The position numbers and the translations under genes are program-made. The notes under the pieces were generated by a model. That model ran no database searches, was not told the origin of the DNA, and saw only the letters and a list, made by a program, of their open reading frames with translations. From Selenomonas sp. F0473 (GTDB taxonomy: Bacteria > Bacillota > Negativicutes > Selenomonadales > Selenomonadaceae), in assembly GCF_000315545.1 (NCBI RefSeq), contig NZ_JH992902.1, positions 35,280-99,279 of the forward strand: a stretch of DNA of 64,000 bases, read 5' to 3'. Below are positions 3,696 to 60,734 of the stretch, in pieces (position 1 is the stretch's first letter; each line of letters begins with the position of its first letter).

Positions 3696-3718
3696 TTGAA
3701 TCGATATTACCGATCCGA

Positions 3719-3751
3719 CATGGAAAGATCATTTTCTTTCCATGTTTTTTA
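3719..3751 (+). terminator. Intrinsic terminator after sepF
   Basis: CATGGAAAGA (3719-3728) pairs with TCTTTCCATG (3735-3744) and is followed by six T residues. Confidence 0.9.
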
Positions 3752-3782
3752 TTGGGGAATATGAAAAAATTCCTACGGAACA

Positions 3783-3811
3783 TTGTTTTGTTTGTATTCT
3801 TATGCTATAAT
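3783..3811 (+). promoter_or_regulatory. Extended -10 promoter of rpsB
   Basis: TTGTTT at 3783-3788, a 17-bp spacer and TATAAT at 3806-3811, with the extended -10 dinucleotide TG at 3803-3804. This is a strong promoter, as expected for a ribosomal protein gene. Confidence 0.85.
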
Positions 3812-3852
3812 ACACCGCAGTGTGAAAAAGCACGCGTTCCCGATAGCCAACC

Positions 3853-8089: not shown

Positions 8090-8908
8090 TTGATTACGCG
8101 TATGATTTCGGGGATTGTCGGCATAGGTCTTTCTGCTTACGTGATTCAGGAAGGCGGGCGAATGTTTGCGATCGCCGCGGCGGTGCTTGCCTTGCTTGCG
8201 TGGATTGAGTTCACGCGGGCATTTTCCCATCGCGGGGGGAATCCGACGCTCTTTACGGGCGTGCTCGGTATCGGAGGGATCCTTTACGGTGCTTTTTACG
8301 GAGCGCTTGACGTTATCCTGCTCTCCGTCACAGGCGCGACTCTCCTTGCCGTATTGAGCTGCGTGCTCCTCCGCGGGGATGTGTCGGTGCTCGATGTGGG
8401 CGTCTCCATTGCGGGGATCTGCTACATCGGTCTGCCGTTCGCACATCTCGTCATGCTGCGGCAGCTTTCGGGCGGGATATACACGACGCCTGTCGGAACG
8501 TTCGATCTAGGAACGGCGATGGTCTGGATCATGTTCATCGGCACATGGGCGAGCGACAGTTTCGCTTACTTTGCGGGGAATGCGTTTGGCTCGCATCGGC
8601 TGGCTCCGGCAATTAGCCCGAACAAGACGGTGGAAGGCTTTTTGGGGGGGCTTGTCGGGACGATTGCGGTTATGGTCGGCCTCGGATATGCGCTCCATTT
8701 TCCGCTCGAATATATGGCGGGACTTGGCGCCGCTATCGCTGTGCTCGCTACGTTGGGCGATCTCGTGGAGTCTATGATGAAACGCTATACGGGCATCAAG
8801 GATTCGGGTGCCGTTATCCCCGGGCACGGAGGCGTATGGGATCGCTTTGACAGCGTGCTCTTTACGGCGCCGCTCGTCTACTACTATACGATTTACTTTG
8901 TACTTTGA
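8090..8908 (+). CDS. cdsA: Phosphatidate cytidylyltransferase
   Basis: Integral membrane enzyme converting phosphatidic acid and CTP to CDP-diacylglycerol, the branch point of phospholipid synthesis. It has 272 residues with about seven to eight hydrophobic segments. The family signature at the C-terminus is complete: SMMKRYTGIKDSGAVIPGHG then GVWDRFDS. GDLVES and SPNKTVEG are also present. The start is TTG 8090, with AGGAGG 8 nt upstream. In related genomes dxr would follow; here rseP follows after 27 nt. Confidence 0.95.
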   Translation: MITRMISGIVGIGLSAYVIQEGGRMFAIAAAVLALLAWIEFTRAFSHRGGNPTLFTGVLGIGGILYGAFYGALDVILLSVTGATLLAVLSCVLLRGDVSVLDVGVSIAGICYIGLPFAHLVMLRQLSGGIYTTPVGTFDLGTAMVWIMFIGTWASDSFAYFAGNAFGSHRLAPAISPNKTVEGFLGGLVGTIAVMVGLGYALHFPLEYMAGLGAAIAVLATLGDLVESMMKRYTGIKDSGAVIPGHGGVWDRFDSVLFTAPLVYYYTIYFVL

Positions 8909-8935
8909 TCATCGTGCAGTCATAAAGGAGACCCG

Positions 8936-9976
8936 ATGTTAGAGAAGATTGTCGCGACCATTTTTGTATTTGGTCTGTTGGTCTTTGTCCATGAACTCGG
9001 CCACTTCATTACCGCCAAGCTGACGGGCATGCGTGTGGACGAGTTCGCGATCGGTTTCGGTCCGCGTCTCGTAAGTTTTCGCCGGGGAGAAACGCTCTAT
9101 TCCATCCGTATCATACCGCTCGGCGGTTTCAACGATATCGCGGGCATGAATCCGGACGACAACGATGCGGGGGACCGCGGCTATTGCCGCAAACCGATCC
9201 TTTCGCGCATGTTTGTGATTCTTGCGGGTTCCGCGATGAATCTGATTCTGCCCGTCGCACTCTTCTTCGGCATCTTTTTCTTTGCCGGTGTGCAAACGCC
9301 GAACCCTGCGCCCGTGCTCGGCACTGTGCTTGCGGATCAGCCCGCGGCGCAGGCCGGGCTGCGGGCGCAGGACCGCATCCTCACGATCGACGGCCGACCG
9401 GTGGAGACATGGCAGTCCATGGTGGAGATGATCCGTGCCAATCAAGGGACGGTACCGCTGACAATGCAGGTCGAGCGTGAGGGGCAGGAATTGACGGTTA
9501 GCGTTATGCCGCGCTACGATACGGCACAAAAACGCGGCTATATCGGCATTGTCAACGATTTCGAGAGCACCTATCCGGGGTTCGTACAGTCCCTAACGAT
9601 GGCGTTTGAGCGCACGGGCATGATCATCGTGATGATGCTGGATGCCCTGTACCGCATCATCCTCGAACTTTCCGGTTCAGAGCTTGCGGGGCCGATCGGT
9701 GTGGCACAGATGGCGGGCGAGGTTGCCGAGATGGGGATTGTGCCGCTGCTGAACTTTGCCGCACTCCTCAGCCTCAATCTCGGCATCATCAATTTGCTGC
9801 CGGTCCCCGCGCTGGACGGCGGACATTTCCTGACGCTCTGCGTCGAAGCCGTGCGCGGCAAACCGCTCAGCCCGAAGGTGATGCGCTACATTCAGAATGC
9901 GGGCGTGGGACTCATCATACTGCTCATGCTGCTCGCAATGAAGAACGATGTCGTCCGCATATTTGCAGGAGGCTGA
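8936..9976 (+). CDS. rseP: RIP metalloprotease RseP (site-2 protease)
   Basis: A zinc intramembrane protease that cleaves transmembrane substrates such as anti-sigma factors. The 346-residue protein has the HExxH motif in FVHELGHFITAKLTG at about residues 17-31, a PDZ domain at about 125-195 (PAAQAGLRAQDRILTIDGRP) and the second catalytic motif LLPVPALDGGHFL near 285-297. Four membrane segments are visible. ATG 8936 follows AAAGGAG. It sits directly after cdsA and 8 nt before ispG. Confidence 0.96.
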   Translation: MLEKIVATIFVFGLLVFVHELGHFITAKLTGMRVDEFAIGFGPRLVSFRRGETLYSIRIIPLGGFNDIAGMNPDDNDAGDRGYCRKPILSRMFVILAGSAMNLILPVALFFGIFFFAGVQTPNPAPVLGTVLADQPAAQAGLRAQDRILTIDGRPVETWQSMVEMIRANQGTVPLTMQVEREGQELTVSVMPRYDTAQKRGYIGIVNDFESTYPGFVQSLTMAFERTGMIIVMMLDALYRIILELSGSELAGPIGVAQMAGEVAEMGIVPLLNFAALLSLNLGIINLLPVPALDGGHFLTLCVEAVRGKPLSPKVMRYIQNAGVGLIILLMLLAMKNDVVRIFAGG

Positions 9977-35236: not shown

Positions 35237-35281
35237 TTCGATGCGCGGAACGTTGAGGACGTCTGTGAGAGGAGCGCGTGC

Positions 35282-36719: not shown

Positions 36720-37619
36720 ATGGAACTCAAAATCCTGATTACGTTCAAGACGATTATCCGTACGGGCAGCTTCTCCAAGGCCGCACAGCGCCTCAACTAC
36801 ACGCCGTCCACGATCACGTTCCACGTCGCGCAACTCGAGGAAGCGGCGGGGGTGCAGATCTTCGAAAAGAGCGGCCGGCGCATGATCTTGACGCAGGCGG
36901 GCGAGGCGCTCGTCCCTTACGTCGACGAGGTGCTCGAAGCCGCGCGTAAAATCCAAAATTTTCAATACGACATCTCGGGCTGTCACGGGACCCTTACGAT
37001 CGGCGCGCCCGAATCCATGCTGTGCTTTCGCCTGCCGGCACTCCTCAAACGCCTGCACCGACACGCGCCGCATGTGGATCTCCGGCTGCGCTCGCTCTCG
37101 AGCCGCAGCGTGATTGAGGCGCTGCATGAAGACACCGTCGATATCGGCTTTGCCTACGGCGTGCACGATAAAGATCGGGAGCAGATCGATTTCCGGGTAT
37201 TCGAGAACAGTCCGGCTCATTTTTACACATCGCCGTCGGTCGCCGCGCGCTGCCCGGATATGAAGACGAGCGGGCAGACGGTGGCGGAGGTAACGCGCAT
37301 CTCCATGCCTCGGCCGGGGGAGATACGCGCGCTCCTGGACGAGTATCTGAGAAAGAAAGAGATTTCTTTTACGAATACCATCGAACTGCTCAGCACACAG
37401 ACCATCATCAACCTCGTCGAAAACGATATGGGCATCGCGCTCCTGCCGGATTTCTCCGTGCAGGAGCGGGTGGCGCGCAAGACGCTCGCCATTGTGCCGT
37501 CCGAAAAGATCCACGTCCGCTCTTTCTGCGGAACGCGGAAAAATAAATGGCATAGCCCCGCGATGAATCTCTTTTTCGATATCCTGTCAGAGTATAAGGA
37601 TGCGGCCGATGCGCCGTAA
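36720..37619 (+). CDS. LysR-family transcriptional regulator
   Basis: A 299-residue LysR protein: N-terminal winged HTH (TGSFSKAAQRLNYTPSTITF then HVAQLEEAAGVQIFEKSGRR) and a C-terminal periplasmic-binding-like effector domain from about residue 90, with DIGFAYGVHD and NDMGIALLPDFSV as standard landmarks. It points the same way as, and lies just upstream of, the nitrogenase-like gene and the TonB receptor locus, which makes it the best candidate for their regulator. The effector is unknown. ATG 36720 follows GAGGAAAG. Confidence 0.9.
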   Translation: MELKILITFKTIIRTGSFSKAAQRLNYTPSTITFHVAQLEEAAGVQIFEKSGRRMILTQAGEALVPYVDEVLEAARKIQNFQYDISGCHGTLTIGAPESMLCFRLPALLKRLHRHAPHVDLRLRSLSSRSVIEALHEDTVDIGFAYGVHDKDREQIDFRVFENSPAHFYTSPSVAARCPDMKTSGQTVAEVTRISMPRPGEIRALLDEYLRKKEISFTNTIELLSTQTIINLVENDMGIALLPDFSVQERVARKTLAIVPSEKIHVRSFCGTRKNKWHSPAMNLFFDILSEYKDAADAP

Positions 37620-37687
37620 TCGTTTGCCGGCCTTTTCGCCGCCGTATGAATGGTGAGGGGCGGCCTTTCTATTTGGGAGAGAAACAC

Positions 37688-39289
37688 ATGGAGCGGATCA
37701 TTGCCGAAGAGATCAAGTCCTTCGATACGAGTATGGATGCGTTATGGAGCCGGCATGATCTCGTTCTGCTTGCTTCGGGATCCCTCATCTGCCTCCGTGC
37801 CGTATACCAAAGGGCGGCCTTGCGCGGCGTCCTTTCACAGCTGCGCTATGCTATTCTCCGCGAGGAGGACTACGCGATCGGCATGGCGGAGGAGAAGATC
37901 CGCGATGCGGTGCGGCGGGCGGCGATGCTCCAAGGGGCGCGCGTAATCGTCATTTATCTCTCCTGTCTCGACATCTTGATACGTCTCGACTTCTCCGATA
38001 TCGAAGCGTGCCTTTCGGCAGAGACGGGGCGTATCGTGCGCTGTTTCTTTCGCGGCCCCCTTGCAAAGGCGGATGCAATCCCGCACGAGACGGCCAAGGA
38101 ACTTCTGCGTCGTCTGCCGCCGGAGAAAACGCGCGTCGCTGCGCCTGCACCGCTGCCGCCGCCCATGAGCGACATTGCGGGCGTGAACGATCTGCTGCGC
38201 GGTTCGGATGCCGTAAACGTCCTTGTCACACCGTCGGGCTGCCGCAGCCCGCTGGCCCGCACGGACATGATGCGGGAACGCCGCGATGTATACGCCGCGC
38301 TGCCGGAGGCGGAGGATTATATCTTTGGCATGGAAGAGACGGTGCGCGCGCAGGTCGATACGCTTGCGGAAAGAGAGCGCTGCCGAACGCTGAATATTTT
38401 GAGCTCGCCCGTACCTGCATTCATGGGGCTGCAGGAAGAGTTCGTGATGGAGAATCTCCCCGCACAGAACTGTTATGGACGGTTTTTTGAAACGAACGGA
38501 TTCCGAGATGCCGTCGCGGGGATTGCGGCGGCGACACTATTCCTTGTGCGGGAGGCTGCGGATGCGTGGGCGACGGTCTCCCGCGGCGTATACGTGCTCG
38601 GTTGGAGTGCGATCCTCGGCGGTGAGCGCGCACAATTTGAGACGGCGGAGCGGCTCTTTGCCGCGTACGGTTATACGATGCATATGGTCGGGGCGGACGA
38701 ATTGCCGGAGTATCCCGCGCTCGTATGGGCGGTTTCCGCCGCGGGGGTGCCCGCGGCGGAGTGGATACGCGCGAACAGGGACATCCCTATGCTGCGGACG
38801 CTGCCCCTCTCCGCGGTTGGAACGGCGGTGTGGGAACGCGATGTGTGCGCGGCGCTCGGCGTACAGTATAAAGAAAGAATGTCGTTGAACGACGAGACAA
38901 TATGCCCCCGCGAGGCATGCGGAGGGGAACGCGTTCTGCTGATCGGCGATCCGATCGCGTCGGAGGCGATTGCCAATGTCCTGCGCAGATACGGCCGGCA
39001 TAACTTGCAGTTTGCGGCATATGCGTGGACGTCCGAGACGGCCGAACTCTATCGTCATGCGGCGGAGGGAGGGGAAATCTTTTGTTTTTGCACACGCGAG
39101 GAGCTGCAGCCCGTGTGGGATGCGGCGGATATCGTGGTTGCCGATCCCGTATATTGCGCTGTCCTCGGAGAAAAACGAATCGTCCCGCTCCCGTCCGGAC
39201 TTCTGTCCGGCAGGAATGCCGCGCTGCCGGGCGGGGGCGTTTTAGGCGATGTGTTTTATAAGGAATTGATGAAATTTCTCGGACAATAA
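37688..39289 (+). CDS. Nitrogenase component-1-like protein with duplicated N-terminal subdomain
   Basis: A 533-residue protein resembling NifD/NifK/NifE-type subunits. Residues 28-125 follow the component-1 pattern: LLASGSLICLR with C35, LREEDYAIGMAEEKIRDAV (like the FGGEEKL motif), VIYLSCLDILI with C93, then RCFFRGPL. Residues 178-275 repeat it: VTPSGCRSPL with C185, AEDYIFGMEETVRAQV, NILSSPVPAFMG with Ser in place of the second Cys, then NCYGRFFETNGF. The rest (about 290-533) matches the remaining Rossmann-like part with ERVLLIGDPIASEAIANVL and ADIVVADPVYC. There is no NifH-like reductase or second subunit in the window. The start is ATG 37688 (GGGAGA). It sits between LysR and a TonB receptor. 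Function is unknown; a metal- or tetrapyrrole-related redox or binding role is inference. Confidence 0.75.
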   Translation: MERIIAEEIKSFDTSMDALWSRHDLVLLASGSLICLRAVYQRAALRGVLSQLRYAILREEDYAIGMAEEKIRDAVRRAAMLQGARVIVIYLSCLDILIRLDFSDIEACLSAETGRIVRCFFRGPLAKADAIPHETAKELLRRLPPEKTRVAAPAPLPPPMSDIAGVNDLLRGSDAVNVLVTPSGCRSPLARTDMMRERRDVYAALPEAEDYIFGMEETVRAQVDTLAERERCRTLNILSSPVPAFMGLQEEFVMENLPAQNCYGRFFETNGFRDAVAGIAAATLFLVREAADAWATVSRGVYVLGWSAILGGERAQFETAERLFAAYGYTMHMVGADELPEYPALVWAVSAAGVPAAEWIRANRDIPMLRTLPLSAVGTAVWERDVCAALGVQYKERMSLNDETICPREACGGERVLLIGDPIASEAIANVLRRYGRHNLQFAAYAWTSETAELYRHAAEGGEIFCFCTREELQPVWDAADIVVADPVYCAVLGEKRIVPLPSGLLSGRNAALPGGGVLGDVFYKELMKFLGQ

Positions 39290-39419: not shown

Positions 39420-41627
39420 ATGACAAAGAAAAAGATTGCGTCATTTCTTACGTTATGGCTGGCGGGCAGCGGCATCGCAAATGCCGCGCAGCCGGAGGTG
39501 CTCAGCGATACGGCAAGGGCGACGGAGGATACCTACGAACTCCCCGCAGTGACGGTCACAGGCGCGCGCACACTGACGGATACGGACGGGCGGCTCATGC
39601 TGCCGGGCGGCTTTCAAGCGCAGGAGACGAATTTCGGCCTGCTGGGCGATCGGGACGTAATGCAGGTGCCGTATACGGCGCAGAGCCTCACAACGAAGAA
39701 TTTCGATACGTTTTCTGCGCCGTCGGGCGACGTGAATCAGGTTCTCGCGAATGTGCCGTCGCTGCGCGTGGGCACCTCGCTCATCAAGACGGACTTCTCC
39801 GCGCGCGGGATGCTTGCGAACGGTTCGGCGATGTATCTCAACAATGTGCCGGGCTTCTTCATCATGGCAGCTGGTCCGGTGACGAATACGATTGGACGTG
39901 CCGATGTTATGGTCGGGCCTGCGGCAACGCTTTCCGGCTCGGTGCAGTCCTACAACGGCCCCGACGGCGGACAGCCGGTCTCCGTCTACCTCTATACGAA
40001 GCGCCCGGAGAAGGGCGATTTCACGCGCTACCGGCAGACGATGGGCGGCTACGGCCACTACGGCAGCTATATCGACGTGAACCGCAGCGGTCTCGGCGAC
40101 GGGACATTCGGCGTGCGCGTCTACGGCGAGCACAGCGAGGGGAATTTTGCCGTGAGCGGTGCGGGACGGCAAAAGACGAACCTCTTTGTCGATGTCAGCC
40201 GCGAGACACCGAAGAGCACGACGAATCTCTTCGGCGGATACTACAGGGACCGCCTGCGCGGAACGGAGCGGCGCTTCCAGATTCAGCGCACGGCGCGGCA
40301 GGTGCCGGGTGCACCCGATGCGAGCCGCAGCTACGATGATCCGAACCTCATGCACAGCGACTGGGACGGCTATCAGATCACGCTCAACCACGAGCAGAAG
40401 ATCAATCCGCATACGAAGTGGTTCCTGAACGCCGGCACGAACGACATGACGAACCGCCGCTTCATCTATTGGTCGCAGGTGACGATTGATGGAGACGGCA
40501 ACCTGCGCGGCAACCGCGTCTGGTCGCAGTATTTCTATCTCAAGAGCCGCTACGGACAGATCGGGGTAAACCATAAATTCCGCACGGGAGCAGCGGAGCA
40601 TGACGTGACGCTCGCCGTGGACCGCTCGTGGCGCGTCCAGTACAACAATACGCGGCGCGATGGGGCGGGGGCGCAGGTGTCGGGCAATATCTACTCCGGC
40701 ATCATCTATCGGCCCTCGATCTACAGCTACGACATCTCCGACAGTCTCGGGCAGAAGTTCCAGTATCAGGAAATGGATACGAGCATCAACCTGATGGACA
40801 ATGTAAAGATCGGGAAATGGAATCTTCTCGCCGCCGTGACGCGCCGCCACGGGAACTATCGCGGCAGTGCGGCGGGCAGTCAGATCTCCGATACGCAGTA
40901 TGCGCCGACGTTCGGTGTGACCTATGCGCCGACGGAGCGCCTCTCGGTCTATGGGGCATATGCGCGCTCCACGACGCGCGGGCAGGTCGTCCCCGGCGGC
41001 TATGACAACGAGGGGACGATCCTCCCCTCTGTGAAGGTGACGCAGAAGGAACTCGGCGTCAAGTACAAGTTCGGCAATATGTACGCCGCGCTCGCGTATT
41101 TCGACGTGAACCAGCCGAACTATATCGATGTTGCGACGGGGGCGTCGACGAAGGCATATCGCCTCGACGGCGAGAACCGCTATCGCGGCGTGGATCTCAG
41201 CATTACGGGCGCAGCCGCGCCGAAGTGGAACGTATTCGGCGGGATTCAGTACCTCCATGCGCGCCAGCAGCGGACGCAGGGCGGCGTAAACGACGGCCTG
41301 CCGACGGACAGCTCGGCGCCGTGGAGCGCCGTTGCGGGGGTTGAGTATATGCCGAATGCGGACTGGACCATCACGGGGCGTCTGAACTACGTCTCGCGCG
41401 GCACGATCATCGGCACCGGCCGCCGCGAACTCTCCGTACCGTCATCGGCAGTATTTGATCTCTTTGCGAACTATCGAACGAAGATCGGAACGACGCCCGT
41501 GTCTCTGCAGGCGTCCATCTACAACGTATTCGACCGCAGTTACTGGATTTTGCAGCCGGGTCAGGGGAGCAAGCTGCTGCTCTCGATGCCGCGGACGTTC
41601 ATGCTCTCCGCGACGTTTGATCTCTGA
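39420..41627 (+). CDS. TonB-dependent outer-membrane receptor
   Basis: A 735-residue ligand-gated outer-membrane channel. It has a signal peptide (IASFLTLWLAGSGIANA|A), a TonB-box-like segment YELPAVTVTG near residues 40-49, a plug domain (about 70-200, with VMQVPYTAQSLTTKNFDTFS and TDFSARGMLANGSAMYLNNV) and a 22-strand-type barrel with alternating aromatic strands, ending ASIYNVFDRSYW then MLSATFDL with the terminal aromatic-x-aromatic-like signature. Family layout fits siderophore, haem or cobalamin receptors; the ligand is not readable. It shows the organism has an outer membrane. The ABC importer genes follow. Confidence 0.93.
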   Translation: MTKKKIASFLTLWLAGSGIANAAQPEVLSDTARATEDTYELPAVTVTGARTLTDTDGRLMLPGGFQAQETNFGLLGDRDVMQVPYTAQSLTTKNFDTFSAPSGDVNQVLANVPSLRVGTSLIKTDFSARGMLANGSAMYLNNVPGFFIMAAGPVTNTIGRADVMVGPAATLSGSVQSYNGPDGGQPVSVYLYTKRPEKGDFTRYRQTMGGYGHYGSYIDVNRSGLGDGTFGVRVYGEHSEGNFAVSGAGRQKTNLFVDVSRETPKSTTNLFGGYYRDRLRGTERRFQIQRTARQVPGAPDASRSYDDPNLMHSDWDGYQITLNHEQKINPHTKWFLNAGTNDMTNRRFIYWSQVTIDGDGNLRGNRVWSQYFYLKSRYGQIGVNHKFRTGAAEHDVTLAVDRSWRVQYNNTRRDGAGAQVSGNIYSGIIYRPSIYSYDISDSLGQKFQYQEMDTSINLMDNVKIGKWNLLAAVTRRHGNYRGSAAGSQISDTQYAPTFGVTYAPTERLSVYGAYARSTTRGQVVPGGYDNEGTILPSVKVTQKELGVKYKFGNMYAALAYFDVNQPNYIDVATGASTKAYRLDGENRYRGVDLSITGAAAPKWNVFGGIQYLHARQQRTQGGVNDGLPTDSSAPWSAVAGVEYMPNADWTITGRLNYVSRGTIIGTGRRELSVPSSAVFDLFANYRTKIGTTPVSLQASIYNVFDRSYWILQPGQGSKLLLSMPRTFMLSATFDL

Positions 41628-41706
41628 CTGCACTGCGGATAGACATGCAGGAGGGGCCGCTCCAGGACTTTTACAAGCCTTTGGGGTGTGCCCCGTATTG
41701 TATTTA

Positions 41707-41715
41707 TGCTATAAT
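41707..41715 (+). promoter_or_regulatory. Extended -10 promoter before the ABC importer genes
   Basis: TGC followed by TATAAT (41710-41715). No clear -35 is visible. The importer genes may therefore be transcribed separately from the receptor. Confidence 0.55.
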
Positions 41716-41749
41716 TTCAGATGGAAGTTTTGGGAATAGGAGGATGATC

Positions 41750-42814
41750 ATGAAACATCGTTTGTCATTTGGTTTTCTTGCGACTCTGATGCTCCTCTGC
41801 ATCGTGCTCGCAGGATGCGGAGCGCAGCAGGCGTCCGCCCCTAAGGAGGAGCGTGTCGTGACGGATACGACCGGGCGTGAGGTACATTTGCCGGGAGAGA
41901 TCAAGAGCCTCGCTATCGTGCCGATCCCGTGGGCGTCCATTGTCTACGCGGTAGACGGCACGGGGCAGCGCATCGCGGGGATGCATCCCTCGGCAAAGGC
42001 ATCTTATGAGAAGTCCATGCTGAAGACGTTGGCGCCCGAACTGGCAGGAGCTTCGACGGATTTTGTCGGGCAGGATTTTTCCATTCACATGGAAGAGCTC
42101 GGCAAGTTGAACCCGAGCGCCATCGTCGTTTGGAATTATCAAGAGGAGGAAATCAAACAGCTGGAGGCGCTTAAGGTTCCGACCATCGCGTTGAAATACG
42201 GCACGATGGAGGACTTGCAGAACGGCATCCGCGTCATCGGAAAAGTGCTCGGCAAAGAGGACCGTGCCGAGGAAATCATTGAGTTCCAAAAGGACACAAT
42301 GGCCTATTTCGACGGGAAAAAGGCGGCACTCGCGGACAAACCAAAGCCGAAGGTCCTTTATTTATACGATGAGAATCTCAAGGTTGCGGGCGGCAACGCC
42401 GTCAATACCATGATGATTGAGACGGCAGGCGGCGCGAATGCGGCGAAGGAAGTCGACGGAACATGGGTCAATGTCACGATGGAGCAGGTCGCCGCGTGGA
42501 ATCCCGATGTCGTGATCGTCAGCAATTTCTCGCAGGTTCAGCCAAGCGATCTGTTCGAAAACAAGCTCGAAGGCCAGAACTGGAGCAATATTGCCGCCGT
42601 TCGTGAGGGTCGTGTGTGGAAAGCGCCCATCGGCCTCTACCGTTGGGATGCGCCGTGTGTCGAGACGCCGCTGATGATCAAGTGGCTCGGACAGAAGCTG
42701 CATCCGGACGTCTTTAACGACTATGTGCTTGCCGACGATATGCGCAGCTTCTATGAGAAATTCTTCGGTTATCAGCTGACCGACGAAGATTTGAAGTTCA
42801 TTTTCCATGAGTGA
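41750..42814 (+). CDS. ABC importer substrate-binding lipoprotein (FecB/BtuF type)
   Basis: A periplasmic binding lipoprotein of 354 residues. The lipobox is IVLAGCG, with the modified Cys near residue 24. The class III binding-protein fold shows RVVTDTTGREVHLPGEIKSL near the start and the conserved MEQVAAWNPDVVIVSNFSQV. This family delivers iron-siderophores, haem or cobalamin to FecCD permeases. Two ATGs lie close together; ATG 41750 is 6 nt after AGGAGG and is preferred over 41744. It is first in an SBP-permease-ATPase operon. Confidence 0.92.
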   Translation: MKHRLSFGFLATLMLLCIVLAGCGAQQASAPKEERVVTDTTGREVHLPGEIKSLAIVPIPWASIVYAVDGTGQRIAGMHPSAKASYEKSMLKTLAPELAGASTDFVGQDFSIHMEELGKLNPSAIVVWNYQEEEIKQLEALKVPTIALKYGTMEDLQNGIRVIGKVLGKEDRAEEIIEFQKDTMAYFDGKKAALADKPKPKVLYLYDENLKVAGGNAVNTMMIETAGGANAAKEVDGTWVNVTMEQVAAWNPDVVIVSNFSQVQPSDLFENKLEGQNWSNIAAVREGRVWKAPIGLYRWDAPCVETPLMIKWLGQKLHPDVFNDYVLADDMRSFYEKFFGYQLTDEDLKFIFHE

Positions 42815-42823
42815 GGCCGGGTT

Positions 42824-43837
42824 ATGCAAAAGAGTAACCGATTGCTGTGGCTGAGCCTGACCGGCGGCCTGATCGCCGTGTTTTTCCTCTCCCTGGCGGC
42901 GGGGCGTTACCCGCTGTGGCCGGACGAGGTCGCTGAGATTCTGATGAATGCCCTCGGCGGTGCGCCCGGTGAAGATATGGCATCGACCGTTGTACTGGAA
43001 CTGCGCCTGCCGCGTACTCTGCTCGCGATGCTGGTCGGCGCGGGACTCTCGCTCTCGGGGGCGGTATACCAAGGCATCTTCCGCAATCCGCTCGTCAGTC
43101 CCGACGTGCTCGGCGTCAGCAGCGGTGCGGGTTTCGGTGCGGTGCTCGGCATCCTGCTCTGGGGAACGGGCGGCGGCACGTCCTTGCTCGCATTTTTATG
43201 CGGTGCGGCTAGTGTGTGGCTCGCGTACTATTTCTCCAAGAGTCGCGGATCGGTGTCGATGATGTCACTCGTCCTTTCGGGCATCATCATCTCGTCCATC
43301 TTCTCCGCGCTCATTTCACTGGTCAAATATGCCGCCGATCCCTATGACAAACTGCCAGCCATCACCTATTGGCTGATGGGGAGCTTTTCCAAGGCGGACT
43401 TTGACAAGCTCGAAATCATCGGGCTCCCGATGATCGCGGCGGGGGCGCTCCTTCTCGCAATGCGCTGGCGGATCAACATTCTCTCGCTCGGCGAGGAGGA
43501 GGCGCGTTCGCTCGGAATCGATCCCGCGCGGCTGCGCAATATCGCCATCGTTGCGGCGACCGTTATCACGGCGCTCTCCGTGACCAGCTGCGGCATCGTC
43601 GGCTGGGTCGGACTCGTCATTCCGCATATGTGCCGCCGGATGGTCGGCGTCGATCATCAGCGGCTGCTGCCGGCAACCTGCTTCGTGGGCGCGATCTTTC
43701 TTGCACTCGTCGACATCTGTGCGCGCAGCCTGCTCGCAGCGGAGCTGCCGATCGGCATCCTCACCGCACTGCTCGGCGCACCTTTCTTTGCCGTACTCCT
43801 CAAGCGTACGCGGGAAAAAATGGGGGATTGGTCATGA
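42824..43837 (+). CDS. ABC importer permease, FecCD family
   Basis: A 337-residue inner-membrane permease with about nine to ten membrane segments. Landmarks are LRLPRTLLAMLVGAGLSLSG, GIFRNPLVSPDVLGVSSGAG near residues 85-104, EEARSLGIDPARLRN (ATPase-coupling loop) and GWVGLVIPHMCRRMVGVDHQ. It forms the homodimeric channel of a metal-chelate or cobalamin importer. It lies 9 nt after the binding protein and overlaps the ATPase start by 4 nt. Confidence 0.95.
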   Translation: MQKSNRLLWLSLTGGLIAVFFLSLAAGRYPLWPDEVAEILMNALGGAPGEDMASTVVLELRLPRTLLAMLVGAGLSLSGAVYQGIFRNPLVSPDVLGVSSGAGFGAVLGILLWGTGGGTSLLAFLCGAASVWLAYYFSKSRGSVSMMSLVLSGIIISSIFSALISLVKYAADPYDKLPAITYWLMGSFSKADFDKLEIIGLPMIAAGALLLAMRWRINILSLGEEEARSLGIDPARLRNIAIVAATVITALSVTSCGIVGWVGLVIPHMCRRMVGVDHQRLLPATCFVGAIFLALVDICARSLLAAELPIGILTALLGAPFFAVLLKRTREKMGDWS

Positions 43838-44601
43838 TCGAGGTGAAGGACGCCGCATTTTCTTACGACGGCAAAACAGAAATCTTTTCGGGGCTGAACT
43901 TCTCCCTCCGTGCGGGCGAGATATTGACGATCCTCGGACGCAACGGCATCGGCAAGACCACATTCCTCCGCTGTCTGCTCGGCATCCTGCCGTGGACGCG
44001 CGGCGGCTGTTTGGTGGCCGGGGAACCTCCCGTACCCGACGCCGTCAGCGACAAGATCGGGTATGTGCCGCAGAGTCATGCCCCCGCGTTTCCCTATACC
44101 GTCTTTGAGATGGTCATGATGGGGCGGGCGCGGCGCATCGGCCTCTTTCGAACGCCGAGCGATGAGGATCGCCGCCGTGTGGCGGAGCTGCTCGAACTCG
44201 TCGGCGTTGCGCCGCTCGCGGATCGACGCGCGACGGAACTCAGCGGCGGCCAGCTGCAGATGGTCTACATCGGGCGCGCGCTTGCGACCGAACCGAAGAT
44301 CATGATCCTCGACGAGCCGGAAGCGCATCTCGACTTCCACAATCAGCTCATCGTACTGCGCCTGCTCAAAAAACTGGCAAGCGAGCGGAACATGACGATT
44401 GTTATGAATACGCATTCCCCCGAGAATGCGCTGAAAATATCCGACAAGAGCCTCATGATGCGCCGCGGCGAATACGTCTTCGGCGATACGCAGAACGTCC
44501 TCACCGAGGAGAATCTGCGCCGTTACTTCGATATTGACTGCCGCGTACTTGAGACACAAGTAGGCGGCGAAACCCATCGGGGGTTGCTGACGCTGCTCTA
44601 G
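43834..44601 (+). CDS. ABC importer ATPase, FecE/BtuD type
   Basis: A 255-residue ATPase that powers the preceding permease. Walker A is GRNGIGKTTFL (about 36-46), the Q-loop is GYVPQSHA, the signature is LSGGQLQ near 136 and Walker B is IMILDEPEAHLD with the His switch MNTHSPEN. ATG 43834 overlaps the permease stop (ATGA); the same frame is open from 43630 as a shadow within the permease gene. Confidence 0.95.
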   Translation: MIEVKDAAFSYDGKTEIFSGLNFSLRAGEILTILGRNGIGKTTFLRCLLGILPWTRGGCLVAGEPPVPDAVSDKIGYVPQSHAPAFPYTVFEMVMMGRARRIGLFRTPSDEDRRRVAELLELVGVAPLADRRATELSGGQLQMVYIGRALATEPKIMILDEPEAHLDFHNQLIVLRLLKKLASERNMTIVMNTHSPENALKISDKSLMMRRGEYVFGDTQNVLTEENLRRYFDIDCRVLETQVGGETHRGLLTLL

Positions 44602-44680
44602 CGATGAACAAAAACTGTTTGTATCCGTAGTTGGTGCAGATAGTTTTTTGATGCGCGGTTTTTGGTACAACATATCGGAT

Positions 44681-44710
44681 ATTCCCTCAATAAGGGATTT
44701 GTATTATAAT
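44681..44710 (+). promoter_or_regulatory. Promoter with overlapping inverted repeat before the CMD-cupin gene
   Basis: TATAAT at 44705-44710 is preceded by ATTCCCT-N5-AGGGATT (44681-44699), an interrupted inverted repeat covering the -35 position (TTCCCT at 44682-44687). It is positioned like a repressor or activator site; the regulator is unknown. Confidence 0.55.
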
Positions 44711-44749
44711 AAATGCAGATATCATTTCGCAGCGATGGGGGGCTTAACG

Positions 44750-45508
44750 ATGGCAGTCAAACAGACGGCGGGCAGAGATGTTTTAGGCGCGTTTGCGCCG
44801 ACATTTGCTGCGTTGAACGACGACGTATTGTTCGGCGAGGTGTGGAGCAGGGAGGATGCACTTTCCCTGCGGGACCGCAGCCTCGTGACGGTGACTGCGC
44901 TCATGGCGCAGGGGCTCGTGGATGCGTCGTTCCGCTATCATCTCGAAAGTGCGAAGGCGAATGGCATCACGCGGACGGAGATCGCGGAGATCCTCACGCA
45001 CGCCGCGTTCTATGCGGGATGGCCGAAGGCGTGGGCGGCGTTTCGCATGGCAAAAGACGTGTGGGCGGAGGAGACGAACGATGCCGACGACGCGATGGCG
45101 CGGCATGCGCGCCGGATGGTCTTTCCCATCGGCGCGCCGAACGATGCCTACGCGCAGTATTTCAGCGGAAAGAGCTACCTCGCGCCCATCTCGACGGCGC
45201 AGCTCGGCATTTACAATGTGACGTTTGAGCCGGGCTGTCGCAACAACTGGCACATCCATCATGCGGCGACGGGCGGCGGTCAGATTCTCGTCTGCGTCGC
45301 GGGACGCGGTTACTATCAGGAGGATGGGAAAGAGGCGCGGGAACTCCGGCCGGGCGATGTGGTCAATATCCCGCCGAACGTGAAGCATTGGCACGGCGCG
45401 GCAAAGGACAGTTGGTTTTCGCATCTCGCCGTCGAAGTCCCGGGCGAGCATACGAGCAACGAGTGGTGCGCGCCGGTGTCCGCCGAAGCGTATGGGAAAC
45501 TAAAATAA
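44750..45508 (+). CDS. Carboxymuconolactone decarboxylase-like / cupin fusion protein
   Basis: A 252-residue two-domain protein. Residues 1-115 match carboxymuconolactone-decarboxylase/AhpD-like helical proteins (SLRDRSLVTVTALMAQGLVD, TRTEIAEILTHAAFYAGWP), though no CxxC pair is seen, so peroxidase activity of the AhpD type is unlikely. Residues 140-250 form a cupin with metal-ligand motifs NNWHIHHAATGGGQ and PPNVKHWHGA. Such fusions occur widely in anaerobes, often near reductases; the substrate is unknown. ATG 44750 follows GGGGGGC. It has its own promoter after the importer genes. Confidence 0.88.
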   Translation: MAVKQTAGRDVLGAFAPTFAALNDDVLFGEVWSREDALSLRDRSLVTVTALMAQGLVDASFRYHLESAKANGITRTEIAEILTHAAFYAGWPKAWAAFRMAKDVWAEETNDADDAMARHARRMVFPIGAPNDAYAQYFSGKSYLAPISTAQLGIYNVTFEPGCRNNWHIHHAATGGGQILVCVAGRGYYQEDGKEARELRPGDVVNIPPNVKHWHGAAKDSWFSHLAVEVPGEHTSNEWCAPVSAEAYGKLK

Positions 45509-57914: not shown

Positions 57915-58925
57915 TTAGTCGATCTTCACATTGTGAATCTGCTCGGCGAGACGTTTCAGCGCGTCGACGCTGCGCACGCCCGGGGTGATCTCGGAGAGTT
58001 TCACGCGGACGAAGTGGTTCTCCTTGATTGCCGTGACGCCTTGGAGGCGCGGGTTTGCTTTCAGCTTCTCGACTTTTTGGTTGAAGTCATCCTCGTTACG
58101 GATGCTCGTGCCGTAGTCGGCGATAATGATGTATTCGGGATCAGCGGCGACGACGCTCTCCCAGCTCGTCTTGCTCCACGTCTTATCGACGCCCTGTCCG
58201 CTCATGACGTTGTCCGCGCCGATGAGACGCAGAAGGTTCGGCGTATAGCCCTCGAATACGGTGAACGGCTCGCCGTCCTCGGAATCAAAGACAAAGACGC
58301 GCTTATGCGGCAGTTTGTCGATTTTGTCCTGTACGGCGGCGAGCTGTTTCTTCTGCTCCGCGACCCACGCCTCGGCGCGGTCTTTGACGCCGAAGATTTC
58401 GCCGAGTTTGACCATATCGGCAAAGACCATGTCGAGATCTGCCTTTGTAGACTGCATGGAGTCGGGGATGAAGATGGGGATGTTCTGTGCGGTGATTTTA
58501 TCCGCCTCGATGCCGCGCTTGGTGAAGGGGACTTCCCAACCGGTTGCGAAGTCGGGCTTTGCCGCCATAAAGACTTCGTAGGACGGCCACTTCTCGGCGA
58601 GGACGGGGACTTTCTCATACGCCGCTTGGAGGGGCGGATAGATTTCCTCTTCCTTGAACGCGGTGCCCGCCATGTGGTCGCCGAGATCGAGGGCGAGGAG
58701 CATCTCCGTCGTCGCCTGCGACATGGAGACGGCGCGCGTCGGCGGGGCGGTCGCCTTCATGTCGAGCGTCTGACCGCCGATGTTTTCCGTCCAGGAGACG
58801 GGCGTGTAGGACGAGGATGCGGTCTCCGTCTTTGTCTCCGCCGCCTGCTGCTGACCGCAGCCGGCGCCGAGAAGCAGCACCGCTGCGCCGAGTCCCGCCA
58901 AAAGAGTTTTCTTTGTCTTGAACAT
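57915..58925 (-). CDS. ABC importer substrate-binding lipoprotein (second system)
   Basis: A 336-residue periplasmic binding lipoprotein with lipobox LLLGAGCG (Cys near residue 23) and the FecB/BtuF-type fold: RAVSMSQATTEMLLALDLGD near 60-79 and SWESVVAADPEYIIIADYGT near 250. It is the substrate receptor for the permease and ATPase upstream in the same minus-strand unit. The open frame reaches 58952, but ATG at 58923-58925 with AAGGAGG upstream is the start. Ligand unknown; iron-siderophore, haem or cobalamin are family options. Confidence 0.92.
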   Translation of the reverse strand: MFKTKKTLLAGLGAAVLLLGAGCGQQQAAETKTETASSSYTPVSWTENIGGQTLDMKATAPPTRAVSMSQATTEMLLALDLGDHMAGTAFKEEEIYPPLQAAYEKVPVLAEKWPSYEVFMAAKPDFATGWEVPFTKRGIEADKITAQNIPIFIPDSMQSTKADLDMVFADMVKLGEIFGVKDRAEAWVAEQKKQLAAVQDKIDKLPHKRVFVFDSEDGEPFTVFEGYTPNLLRLIGADNVMSGQGVDKTWSKTSWESVVAADPEYIIIADYGTSIRNEDDFNQKVEKLKANPRLQGVTAIKENHFVRVKLSEITPGVRSVDALKRLAEQIHNVKID

Positions 58926-58948
58926 AAATGTCCTCCTTATTATCGTGG

Positions 58949-59695
58949 TCAATAATACAAATAGCGTGTGCCCTGCTGTTCGCTTGTGTAAAACGGAACC
59001 TCGAACACGTCCTTGAGCAGCGCGGAAGTGAGCACGTCCTGGGCCGCGCCCTCGGCGACGGTTTCGCCCGCGCGCAGGACGGCGGCATGGTCGCAGTAGC
59101 GCGCCGCGAGTCCGAGGTCGTGCAGGACGATGACGACGGTGCCGTCAAAGCGCCGCAGTTCCTCCATAAGGGAAATCTTGTACTTTACGTCGAGGTGATT
59201 GGTCGGTTCGTCGAGGAGCAGCACCTCCGGCTCCTGTGCAAGCGCCTTTGCGACAAAGACGCGCTGGAGTTCGCCGCCCGAGAGCTGTCCAATCTTTTTC
59301 TCCGCCATGGGGAGAATGCGGAACCGGCGCATGACGTTCTCTGCGATTTCATGATCGTGGGCGCTGTACGATTGGAAGCGCTCCTTATACGGGTAGCGTC
59401 CCATGAGTACGACGTCGCGGACGGAGAGTTCCGCCGCCATCTGCAGGTGCCGCTGCGCGAGCACGGCGAGTTTGCGCGCATACTCCGCCGCGGGGATCGT
59501 CTCGATCGGTGTGCCGTTCATAAAGACGGCACACCGGCTCGGCCGCAGCCGCGCGATATGCGCGAGGAGCGTGGACTTGCCGCAGCCGTTCGGGCCAATG
59601 ATGCCCGTGATTCTGCCGCGCGGGAAGGTCAGCGAGATGTCCTTTAGGATCGGATTGCCGCGGATGGCATAGCTCAAATGTCGGATTTCAATCAT
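58949..59695 (-). CDS. ABC importer ATPase (second system)
   Basis: A 248-residue FecE/FhuC-type ATPase. Walker A GPNGCGKSTLLAHIA (about 34-48), signature LSGGELQRVFVA near 135-146, Walker B VLLLDEPTNHLD and His switch VLHDLGLAARY are complete. ATG at 59693-59695 overlaps the permease stop by 8 nt; a GTG at 59704 would add three residues. It lies 23 nt before the binding-protein gene. Confidence 0.94.
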   Translation of the reverse strand: MIEIRHLSYAIRGNPILKDISLTFPRGRITGIIGPNGCGKSTLLAHIARLRPSRCAVFMNGTPIETIPAAEYARKLAVLAQRHLQMAAELSVRDVVLMGRYPYKERFQSYSAHDHEIAENVMRRFRILPMAEKKIGQLSGGELQRVFVAKALAQEPEVLLLDEPTNHLDVKYKISLMEELRRFDGTVVIVLHDLGLAARYCDHAAVLRAGETVAEGAAQDVLTSALLKDVFEVPFYTSEQQGTRYLYY

Positions 59696-60698
59696 AGGCG
59701 TCACCGTACCGTCTGCAAATGATCCAAATGAAGAGCGGCGCGCCGAGATATGCGGTCAATACGCCGATCGGCAGTTCCTCGGGGCGAAAGAGCGTGCGCG
59801 AAAGCACGTCCGCCCACAGCAGAACGCAGCCGCCGAGCAAGGTGCAGACGACGGCCAATACGCCGTGCTTTGCTCCGATCAAGATGCGCGCGATATGCGG
59901 AACGATAAGGCCGACGAAGCCGATGATGCCCGCCTTCGCGACGAGCGCGGCGACGGTGAGCGAGGAGGCGGCGACGGCGGCGAGCTGGAGTTTTTTCACC
60001 GAGATGCCGAGCGCATGGGCTTCGCTCTCTCCGAGCAGGAGAATGTCGAGCTCGTGCCGCACGAACTGAAGGAAGGTGAAGATGCCGAGACAGACGATCG
60101 CGGCGAGCGGCAGATCTCCCCACTGGATGCCGGAGAGACTGCCGAGCAGCCAAAACATCGCACTGCGCACCTGTGCCTCGTGGTTCGCGCTGTAGATGAC
60201 GAGCATTGTCAGCGCAGAGAAGAGCGCCGACATGCCCATGCCGATAAGAACGAGCTTCGTCGGGTTGCTGCTTTTACCGACGAAGAAGACCGCCAGCACA
60301 GTGGCGACGGTCGCGCCGAGGAGAGCGCTGAACGGTACGGCGTACGCGCCGAGGAAGGCAAACGCTCCCCAAATGATCGCGCAGACCGCGCCCGTACTCG
60401 CGCCCGAGGAGACGCCGAGCACATACGGGTCGGCCAGTTCATTGCGCGTGATGGTCTGGAGCAGCAGCCCCGCAAGCGAGAGCCCCGCGCCCGCCAGCAC
60501 CGCGAATAGTGTGCGCGGCATACGGATCGTGTAGAGCACCATGCTCTCCGTTGTGCCTGTGTCCATGCCGCCGTTCATGAGCGTCTGCACGATGCGGTCG
60601 GGCGGGATCGGAACGGAGCCGAAGCCGAGCGACAGAATCATGCTGACGGCGAGCAGCAGGACGAGGACAAGGATTGTTTTCATACGGTTGGTATGCAT
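59688..60698 (-). CDS. ABC importer permease, FecCD family (second system)
   Basis: A ~336-residue permease with about ten membrane segments. Landmarks are IRMPRTLFAVLAGAGLSLAG, RNELADPYVLGVSSGASTGA, ESEAHALGISVKKLQ and GFVGLIVPHIARILIG. It is first in the permease-ATPase-binding protein order. The start is uncertain: frames open at ATG 60719, with ATGs at 60710, 60698 and 60683; 60698 is given as a compromise because GGAAAGGGG is close by. Confidence 0.92.
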   Translation of the reverse strand: MHTNRMKTILVLVLLLAVSMILSLGFGSVPIPPDRIVQTLMNGGMDTGTTESMVLYTIRMPRTLFAVLAGAGLSLAGLLLQTITRNELADPYVLGVSSGASTGAVCAIIWGAFAFLGAYAVPFSALLGATVATVLAVFFVGKSSNPTKLVLIGMGMSALFSALTMLVIYSANHEAQVRSAMFWLLGSLSGIQWGDLPLAAIVCLGIFTFLQFVRHELDILLLGESEAHALGISVKKLQLAAVAASSLTVAALVAKAGIIGFVGLIVPHIARILIGAKHGVLAVVCTLLGGCVLLWADVLSRTLFRPEELPIGVLTAYLGAPLFIWIICRRYGDAYD

Positions 60699-60734
60699 CC
60701 CCTTTCCCATAGTTCCCATAAATATCTAAACCCC

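Follow-up and report, generated by a model that had tools for sequence, protein, structure and literature searches.

A Selenomonas nitrogenase relative that joins domain I of a D-type subunit to a K-type subunit, and its possible link to corrinoids

The 64,000 nucleotides of Selenomonas sp. F0473 considered here (contig NZ_JH992902.1, forward-strand positions 35,280 to 99,279; this whole stretch is called the window) contain a gene for a nitrogenase-like protein, P0001, in which the same ordered motifs occur twice. The gene (37688..39289, + strand) encodes 533 amino acids from the ATG at 37688, or 547 from an in-frame ATG 14 codons upstream (37646-39289, + strand), and it lies among genes of an importer. 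How did a single chain come to carry two such units, and what might it do in that setting? A sequence-only reading had proposed an internal duplication of the N-terminal subdomain with partial loss of cluster ligands. The comparisons presented below point very firmly to another history, in which a D-type subunit was eroded stepwise to its first domain and joined to a complete K-type subunit. For the function, we propose that an eroded single-chain nitrogenase-like component, fed by NifH, may reduce an imported corrinoid, an explanation which, taken as a whole, we favour without quite considering it probable.

Loci are numbered L and genomes G, the window genome being G000. D-I and K-I denote domain I of D-type and K-type subunits, and D1, D2, K1 and K2 the separately encoded D-type and K-type subunits of relatives.

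Two unlike units in a single chain

The Pfam profile PF00148 matches the whole window protein with 52.8 bits against a curated cut-off of 28.6 (E 3.9e-14), the best stretch being residues 173-437 aligned with profile positions 14-296. Residues 1-173 alone align with positions 42-101, under the curated cut-off (E 7.7e-4), and the chain therefore has the appearance of a component 1 subunit with an extra copy of its beginning in front. None of the NCBIfam models for NifD, NifK, AnfD and VnfD matched the protein above cut-off, and at E values up to 0.1 the collection yielded two weak matches to BchN models only (17.8 bits against cut-offs of 324 and 419.95); since it falls below the cut-offs of the BchN and BchB models, the protein is not assigned to BchNB.

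Three parts can be delimited, all on the + strand. Residues 1-150 (37688..38137) form a D-type domain I, as judged from hidden Markov model (HMM) matches to D subunits and from a structural model of residues 1-160. Residues 173-290 (38204..38557) form a K-type domain I, assigned by Smith-Waterman alignment to three K subunits and by a domain-I tree, and residues 291-533 (38558..39286) correspond to K-type domains II-III, with a boundary that is our own estimate, on the basis of the C-part HMM and its full-length match to the K subunits of L097 and L098. Two full three-domain subunits are thus not present: the K-type subunit is complete and the D-type subunit is represented by domain I only. 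The K-type domains II-III are predicted to hold the only complete cofactor or substrate cavity left in the protein.

The identity of the two units emerged from comparison with relatives in which D and K are encoded separately. In profile-to-profile comparisons, the N part resembled D1 (E 3.8e-5) and D2 (E 1e-5), with whole K1 and K2 at about 0.5, and the C part resembled K1 (E 1.9e-29) and K2 (E 2.5e-33), with D1 and D2 at 0.95 and 0.55. With the N-part HMM, E values were 6e-20 to 2e-21 for D of L097-L099 and 0.6-1.3 for K of L097 and L098. The C-part HMM matched these two K subunits over their full length (2e-42 and 3e-42) and, at 1e-22, also the K of L099, which is truncated. Smith-Waterman scores of the N unit against the three nearest unfused D subunits were 129-136, reached by none of 1000 shuffles, and against three K subunits 24-32, which is background; domain I of the C part scored 78-122 against the three K subunits (0/1000 shuffles). 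A domain-I tree had 36 rows, trimmed manually or from a model to lengths that differ somewhat and drawn from 8 of the 13 fused or split proteins, from L097 and L099 (the near-identical L098 being left out) and from four each of D1, D2, K1 and K2; it separated D subunits and N units from K subunits and C units with support of 100/100. We conclude from the profiles, HMMs, alignments and tree that the window protein consists of domain I of a D subunit fused to an entire K subunit.

These results leave the proposed tandem duplication within one subunit highly improbable, and we have rejected it on the profile self-comparison, the domain-I tree and the shuffled Smith-Waterman alignments. What speaks for it, besides the weak resemblance that the N part shows to distant K-type proteins (see below), is the ordered repeat itself and a local alignment of residues 20-130 with residues 170-280 that scores 46, a value equalled by just 6 of 2000 shuffles. 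The same alignment in seven close homologues ranges from 32 (42/500 shuffles) to 50 (1/500), and in the distant L028 it is at background (28, 117/500). Against it stand the lack of significant self-similarity between the halves when compared as profiles (N against C, E 0.87; C against N, 0.061; domain I of the C part against N, 0.039), the grouping of N with D and of C with K, the scores of the N unit against its nearest D subunits and against their K partners, and the occurrence of unfused D and K as adjacent genes in relatives. Two domain-I units in a fused arrangement, both resembling domain I of nitrogenase component 1, were correctly recognised by the sequence-only reading, and a single N-terminal domain is not what we find; it is their origin by copying that fails.

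The motif descriptions hold for the most part. Cysteines 35, 93 and 185 are where they had been placed, the position of the second-copy LSC is occupied by L-S-S-P (S239-S240), and both cysteines are retained in the first unit only. Both E-D-Y motifs are present, the first as E60-D-Y-A-I-G-M-A-E68, one residue away from the numbering given earlier, and the second as E209-D-Y-I-F-G-M-E-E217. The F-F-x-x-x-G element occurs in the second unit (F-F-E-T-N-G, ending at G271) and is not found as such in the first, which reads F120-F121-R-G123. Loss of the second cysteine from a copied D-type unit within this protein is excluded, because separate K subunits already lack that residue.

Two results weigh against the descent from D and K. 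The N part used as a single sequence against a set of six distant proteins scored 4.3e-6 on K2 of L033, with two D2 subunits at 0.011 and 0.89, and the N-part profile reached E 0.0068 against K2 domain I alone, compared with 1e-5 for D2. The early leaning of the N part towards K was reversed because nearer unfused relatives match it as D by HMM, tree and Smith-Waterman score. Some blurring also occurs at the other end, domain I of the C part scoring 47 against D of L099 (3/1000 shuffles), for which the C-part HMM gives E 5.6e-4. Such cross-matches between a unit and the opposite subunit type would fit the ancient paralogy of D and K. In the domain-I tree, the C units and the K subunits of L097 and L099 are linked with support of only 90/63.

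Structural comparison supports the N-terminal assignment. A model of residues 1-160 alone has a predicted local distance difference test score (pLDDT) of 74.8 and a predicted template modelling score (pTM) of 0.74, and its best VIA-align matches are NifE (Z 12.5 and 12.4), BchN (11.9) and NifD (11.8). The ranges for alpha-type chains (Z 9.2-12.5) and beta-type chains (8.8-11.0) overlap, the latter being lower on the whole, where the assignment of chains to either type is partly our own presumption, and the second Foldseek match to this model is a beta-type chain. Profiles of D and K compared with solved structures gave NifE chains as best matches, followed by alpha-type nitrogenase chains, and phmmer searches of solved structures with the window protein or with D of L098 alone gave no match.

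An artefact of frameshift, chimeric assembly or a spurious reading frame has next to no credibility and was rejected, since the frame is open over its full length in seven close homologues (51-65% identity) and in L028, L095 and L096, the neighbourhood is conserved, and we found nothing in its favour.

Relatives and the probable order of domain loss

Unfused and partly eroded forms have been retained in several genomes. L097 (G303) and L098 (G281), which belong to the class of the window genome, carry in order NifH, a D of 416 amino acids, a K of 399 amino acids, a periplasmic substrate-binding protein (SBP), a FecCD permease and an ATPase. L099 has an unfused D of 424 amino acids and its contig ends inside K. 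In L135 (G463, same phylum), the D located between NifH and a full K is reduced to 273 amino acids (8747-9568), covering PF00148 positions 10-244 of 399 and lacking domain III, and its stop codon overlaps the start of K. The fusion of D-I to K is found in 12 loci, namely the window, L021-L027, L028, L095, L096 and the interrupted copy L029. Finally, L100 and L101 encode a protein made up of D-I and K-I (277 and 291 amino acids) that overlaps NifH, and K domains II-III are encoded separately in the neighbourhood.

A K tree places fused and split rows on one side of a branch with support of 100/100 (100/99 in another tree) and the split rows among the fused ones (100/99), a pattern explained most simply by a single fusion event and subsequent fission. 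Because the trees are unrooted (the K trees were drawn midpoint-rooted), it is by parsimony that the unfused state is placed before the fused one. One K tree, which used 5 of 14 K1 and 5 of 16 K2, carries a long-branch warning; the other covers nine of ten loci, L139 with its broken K frame being left out. Alignments and trees did not include the decayed copies (L029, L031/L061). The ancestor would accordingly have been an operon of NifH, D, K, SBP, FecCD permease and ATPase, in which D probably shed its third and then its second domain before the remaining D-I was joined in frame to K.

Full-length fusions are present, among 189 genomes of the family, in 7 of the 14 of the window's genus, in G140 of another genus and in G008 of a third genus, where G019 carries a copy with a stop; a search at order level covered the same 189 genomes and added nothing. 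The 380 genomes of the class gave further full-length fusions in G330 and G240, from other families. A phylum-wide sample of 398 genomes gave single matches over both parts in G000 and G008 only, and in G039 both parts were matched separately within a long frame joining D1 and K1.

Decayed copies were also seen. L029 (17-1663, G019) is interrupted by an in-frame TAG, and L031 (8115-8825, G005) is a C-terminal fragment directly following a shortened permease; assembly error is possible in both.

A different kind of fusion, a single frame of 791-870 amino acids that runs from D1 straight into K1, occurs in L035 (5484-7991), L036 (10187-12799), L039 (5536-7911) and L056 (5238-7700). It differs from the D-I fusion in showing no evident loss of a domain, as judged by length.

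Conserved cysteines, importer genes and a possible role for NifH

Three cysteines of the window protein are invariant both in 8 of 8 rows comprising it and its seven close homologues and in 6 of 6 diverse fused rows, in which it is again included. They are the proposed cluster ligands Cys35 (37790..37792), Cys93 (37964..37966) and Cys185 (38240..38242), all on the + strand. A pair matching the first two is invariant in nine aligned D subunits, and the third corresponds to the sole invariant cysteine of eight separate K subunits. The D profile aligns the counterpart of Cys93 with the NifE motif ...NTC..., and the K profile sets its cysteine on ...IAC... of NifE and on ...QGC... of the NifN half in a NifEN chain. 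Cys119 (38042..38044, + strand) is typical of D1 and D2 and is not universal, being replaced in L028 and L096 and in the unfused D of L098, L099 and L135. Asp193 (38264..38266, + strand) is conserved in the window protein, in its seven close homologues and in L095. A cysteine three residues beyond the position of Cys185 is present in L028, L096 and both split proteins, and L095 has both that cysteine and Asp193, an alternation that suggests, and does not demonstrate, an interchangeable fourth ligand.

The P-cluster of nitrogenase is held by six cysteines across D and K. At its positions the window protein retains three, which we take to be the equivalents of alpha-Cys88, alpha-Cys154 and beta-Cys95, and these persisting residues could hold one iron-sulphur cluster.

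Next to the gene lies an apparent import operon, all on the + strand. A LysR-type regulator, recognised by family match (36720..37619), is the first gene of the conserved neighbourhood and is found in all eight close loci, including the window. The fusion is followed by a TonB-dependent outer-membrane receptor (39420..41627; 7 of 8 close loci), an SBP (41645..42814; PF01497, 444 bits to its L135 counterpart), a FecCD/BtuC-type permease (42824..43837; PF01032, 428 bits to its L135 counterpart) and an ATP-binding cassette (ABC) ATPase, whose open reading frame (ORF) is listed as 43630..44601 with a true start probably near the end of the permease gene. This order is kept in the window and in L021-L027, apart from the receptor, which was not found in L024. 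SBP, FecCD and ATPase genes adjoin 11 of the 12 fused loci (not L095), both split loci and the unfused L097, L098 and L135.

Cobalamin riboswitches head the operons of the unfused L097, L098 and L135, a 51.1-bit example ending 13 nt before the NifH ORF in L135 with a stronger one further upstream, and also of one fused lineage, in G008 (L028) and G005 (L031). The NifH proteins of L098 and L135 score best on CfbC, below cut-off. A corrinoid substrate is proposed because homologous operons are headed by cobalamin riboswitches, and the CfbC-like score of NifH fits a tetrapyrrole.

The window genome encodes one strong NifH (C1:907869-908669, E 9.1e-109), 0.83 Mb away, and NifH is present in all eight close-group genomes with an intact fusion (G000, G024, G025, G027, G030, G033, G034 and G140; E 3e-107 to 8e-111); in G240 it adjoins a D/K pair.

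The mechanism that we propose combines these elements. In nitrogenase relatives, D-I and K-I presumably make up the NifH-facing surface around the electron-transfer cluster, and the cofactor cavity of NifD has presumably gone with D domains II-III. The retention of D-I and K-I, the encoding of NifH beside them in L100 and L101 and the three conserved cysteines together argue that the function preserved would be electron transfer from a NifH-type ATPase. D-I and K-I in one chain would form the electron-transfer face, where Cys35, Cys93 and Cys185, perhaps with Asp193, may hold one [4Fe-4S] cluster. A NifH-type ATPase, encoded here in the CobN cluster 0.83 Mb off, would dock on that face and deliver low-potential electrons, gated by ATP, to a substrate in the intact K domains. 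This would most likely be a corrinoid from the adjoining importer, reduced at cobalt so as to yield Co(I) or to shed the upper ligand, and then adenosylated and used; ATP-gated electrons for such a step are what an importing anaerobe would presumably need. As a biochemical assignment, a NifH-fed corrinoid reductase is tentative. More tentative still is the wider proposal of a minimal nitrogenase fold, in which a D-I/K-I face with one three-cysteine cluster and one cavity of K domains II-III would suffice in a single chain as a NifH-fed corrinoid reductase, the modules having become separate again in two genomes with the electron module overlapping NifH.

Several observations weigh against this explanation. 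The operon of the fusion lacks a NifH, and the NifH of the genome has a D/K pair of its own. In G008 the fusion is intact and NifH-type matches reach 4e-15 at best, and in G330, also with an intact fusion, neither NifH (in a genome 75% complete) nor an importer alongside was recognised. Just three of the usual cluster cysteines are left. No cobalamin riboswitch reaches the Rfam gathering score in the window between 30000 and 64000; G027 alone among the eight close-group genomes has such an element close by, and there it points away. The receptor is nearest to the siderophore class of NCBIfam, below cut-off. A whole-chain AlphaFold2 model, built from four sequences, is poor (pLDDT 50.4, pTM 0.31), for which reason the proposed D-I/K-I face is not seen in it; its 50 Foldseek matches shown are all nitrogenase-family chains at TM scores of 0.16-0.21, which we do not use as support.

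Some of these points bear on the substrate. A protein of the same architecture, likewise fed by NifH, could instead reduce a siderophore, heme or other metal chelate so as to release or mobilise the metal. We regard this as unlikely, though it stays in contention because of the siderophore-class receptor and of the operon in Selenomonas, which has no cobalamin riboswitch. It gains further from the SBP, which scores better on IsdE (heme; 5e-16) than on BtuF (4e-9), both far below cut-off, as is its best match, another SBP model. It is opposed by the two best NCBIfam matches of the permease, which are BtuC models, below cut-off, and by the cobalamin riboswitches that lead homologous importer and nitrogenase-like loci (L097, L098, L135, L028 and L031). 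Such riboswitches were not found in L022 or L095, nor, even at a lax threshold, in L096, L099, L100 or L101, and a genome-wide list places none inside the operon at the other Selenomonas loci. Regulation of the Selenomonas operon is not explained by Rfam families, and the LysR-type protein may account for it.

Other points bear on the electron donor. With the same architecture, the protein may have ceased to be driven by NifH and serve as a cytosolic binding or trafficking protein for corrinoids or tetrapyrroles, or accept electrons from another donor. The missing NifH gene of the operon, the intact copies in G008 and G330 and the absence of D domains II-III are in line with such a role, which is kept in view because of G008 in particular; we nevertheless consider it slightly less likely still, given that the split relatives overlap NifH in both genomes that have them and the cluster cysteines are kept. 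Moreover, in the genus of G008, where NifH is lacking, two of three copies have decayed (G019 and G005).

The NifH-fed reduction of a corrinoid remains our preferred explanation. The distant NifH of the window genome lies in a cluster (C1:905-921k) with CobN, ChlI, ChlD and its own D/K-like pair, downstream of a cobalamin riboswitch. This locus outside the window (L115, C1:904000-922000) is a second nitrogenase-like system linked to vitamin B12, with receptor-, SBP- and ATPase-like ORFs, judged by eye, in between. CobN-like and NifH-D-K-like genes also occur together in L121 and, after a cut-off CobN end, in L117.

Within the window, a carboxymuconolactone-decarboxylase domain joined to a cupin (44648-45508) directly follows the importer genes. 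An apparent second set of SBP, ATPase and FecCD genes, judged from ORFs, lies at 57915-60719 on the - strand with no adjacent nitrogenase-like gene, and its ATPase and permease ORFs matched importer genes of relatives.

Other nitrogenase-like loci show unlike surroundings. In L033 (516-10962), hypF, hypD and hypE, for NiFe-hydrogenase maturation, are interleaved with NifH and usually two D/K pairs, an arrangement shared by L035-L040, L044, L045, L048, L049, L052-L054, L056 and L102-L109. These hyp genes were identified by NCBIfam equivalogs above cut-off in L033 and by similarity elsewhere. HypF or HypD occurs in 30 loci, some copies being short, partial or overlapping, and 23 of the 30 carry HypF, HypD, HypE and NifH. 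In the partial library searched, no paper joined nitrogenase-like genes with hypF and hypD or a hyp operon; a role in making the carbon monoxide ligand is our guess. In L137, a NifH-D-K cluster accompanied by genes of a FecCD importer is preceded, at a distance of about 1.4 kb and in the same orientation, by a molybdenum/tungsten cofactor (Moco) riboswitch (3709-3841).

Comparison with known systems

The window protein is a member of the nitrogenase superfamily that fails its usual two-subunit definition. Like other PF00148 proteins (NifD/NifK, NifE/NifN, BchN/BchB and MarDK), it matches the Pfam profile above cut-off, its N unit aligns with NifE, BchN and NifD chains at Z 11.8-12.5 and its cluster cysteines are in register. 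Those systems consist of two complete paralogous subunits, whereas here D is cut to domain I and fused to K. To our knowledge it would be the first nitrogenase relative without a complete D subunit and, if the corrinoid proposal is true, the first assigned to vitamin B12 reduction. Our literature search of a partial library found no description of the D-I::K architecture, nor of a nitrogenase-like gene in a cobalamin, cobalamin-riboswitch or TonB/FecCD operon, and an earlier description is possible.

In dark-operative protochlorophyllide reductase, BchL-BchN-BchB, the N/B interface carries a single [4Fe-4S] cluster, of which one ligand is not a cysteine; the substrate is a tetrapyrrole and the donor is NifH-like. 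The K subunits of L097 and L098 match BchB models weakly. BchN is complete, and the window protein scores far below the cut-offs of its models.

The Ni-sirohydrochlorin reductive cyclase CfbC/CfbD, to whose CfbC the NifH of L098 and L135 is nearest, also acts on a tetrapyrrole, and its CfbD is homomeric (PMC12552129), unlike the window protein with its two different types of domain I in one chain.

Nitrogenase relatives, which serve for inferring the evolution of the family and its clusters, are described, with the exception of CfbD, as pairs in which both paralogous subunits are complete. The stepwise erosion from three domains to two, to one fused and to the re-split form shows which parts are dispensable and which retained, and it provides a natural test of what an electron-transfer face needs. 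With BtuFCD-type corrinoid import operons the locus shares the SBP, FecCD and ATPase genes beside the fusion and, in relatives, the riboswitch, which the Selenomonas version lacks; if the substrate is indeed a corrinoid, the eroded lineage would offer a candidate answer to where anaerobes obtain the very low-potential electrons needed to produce Co(I) from imported cobamides.

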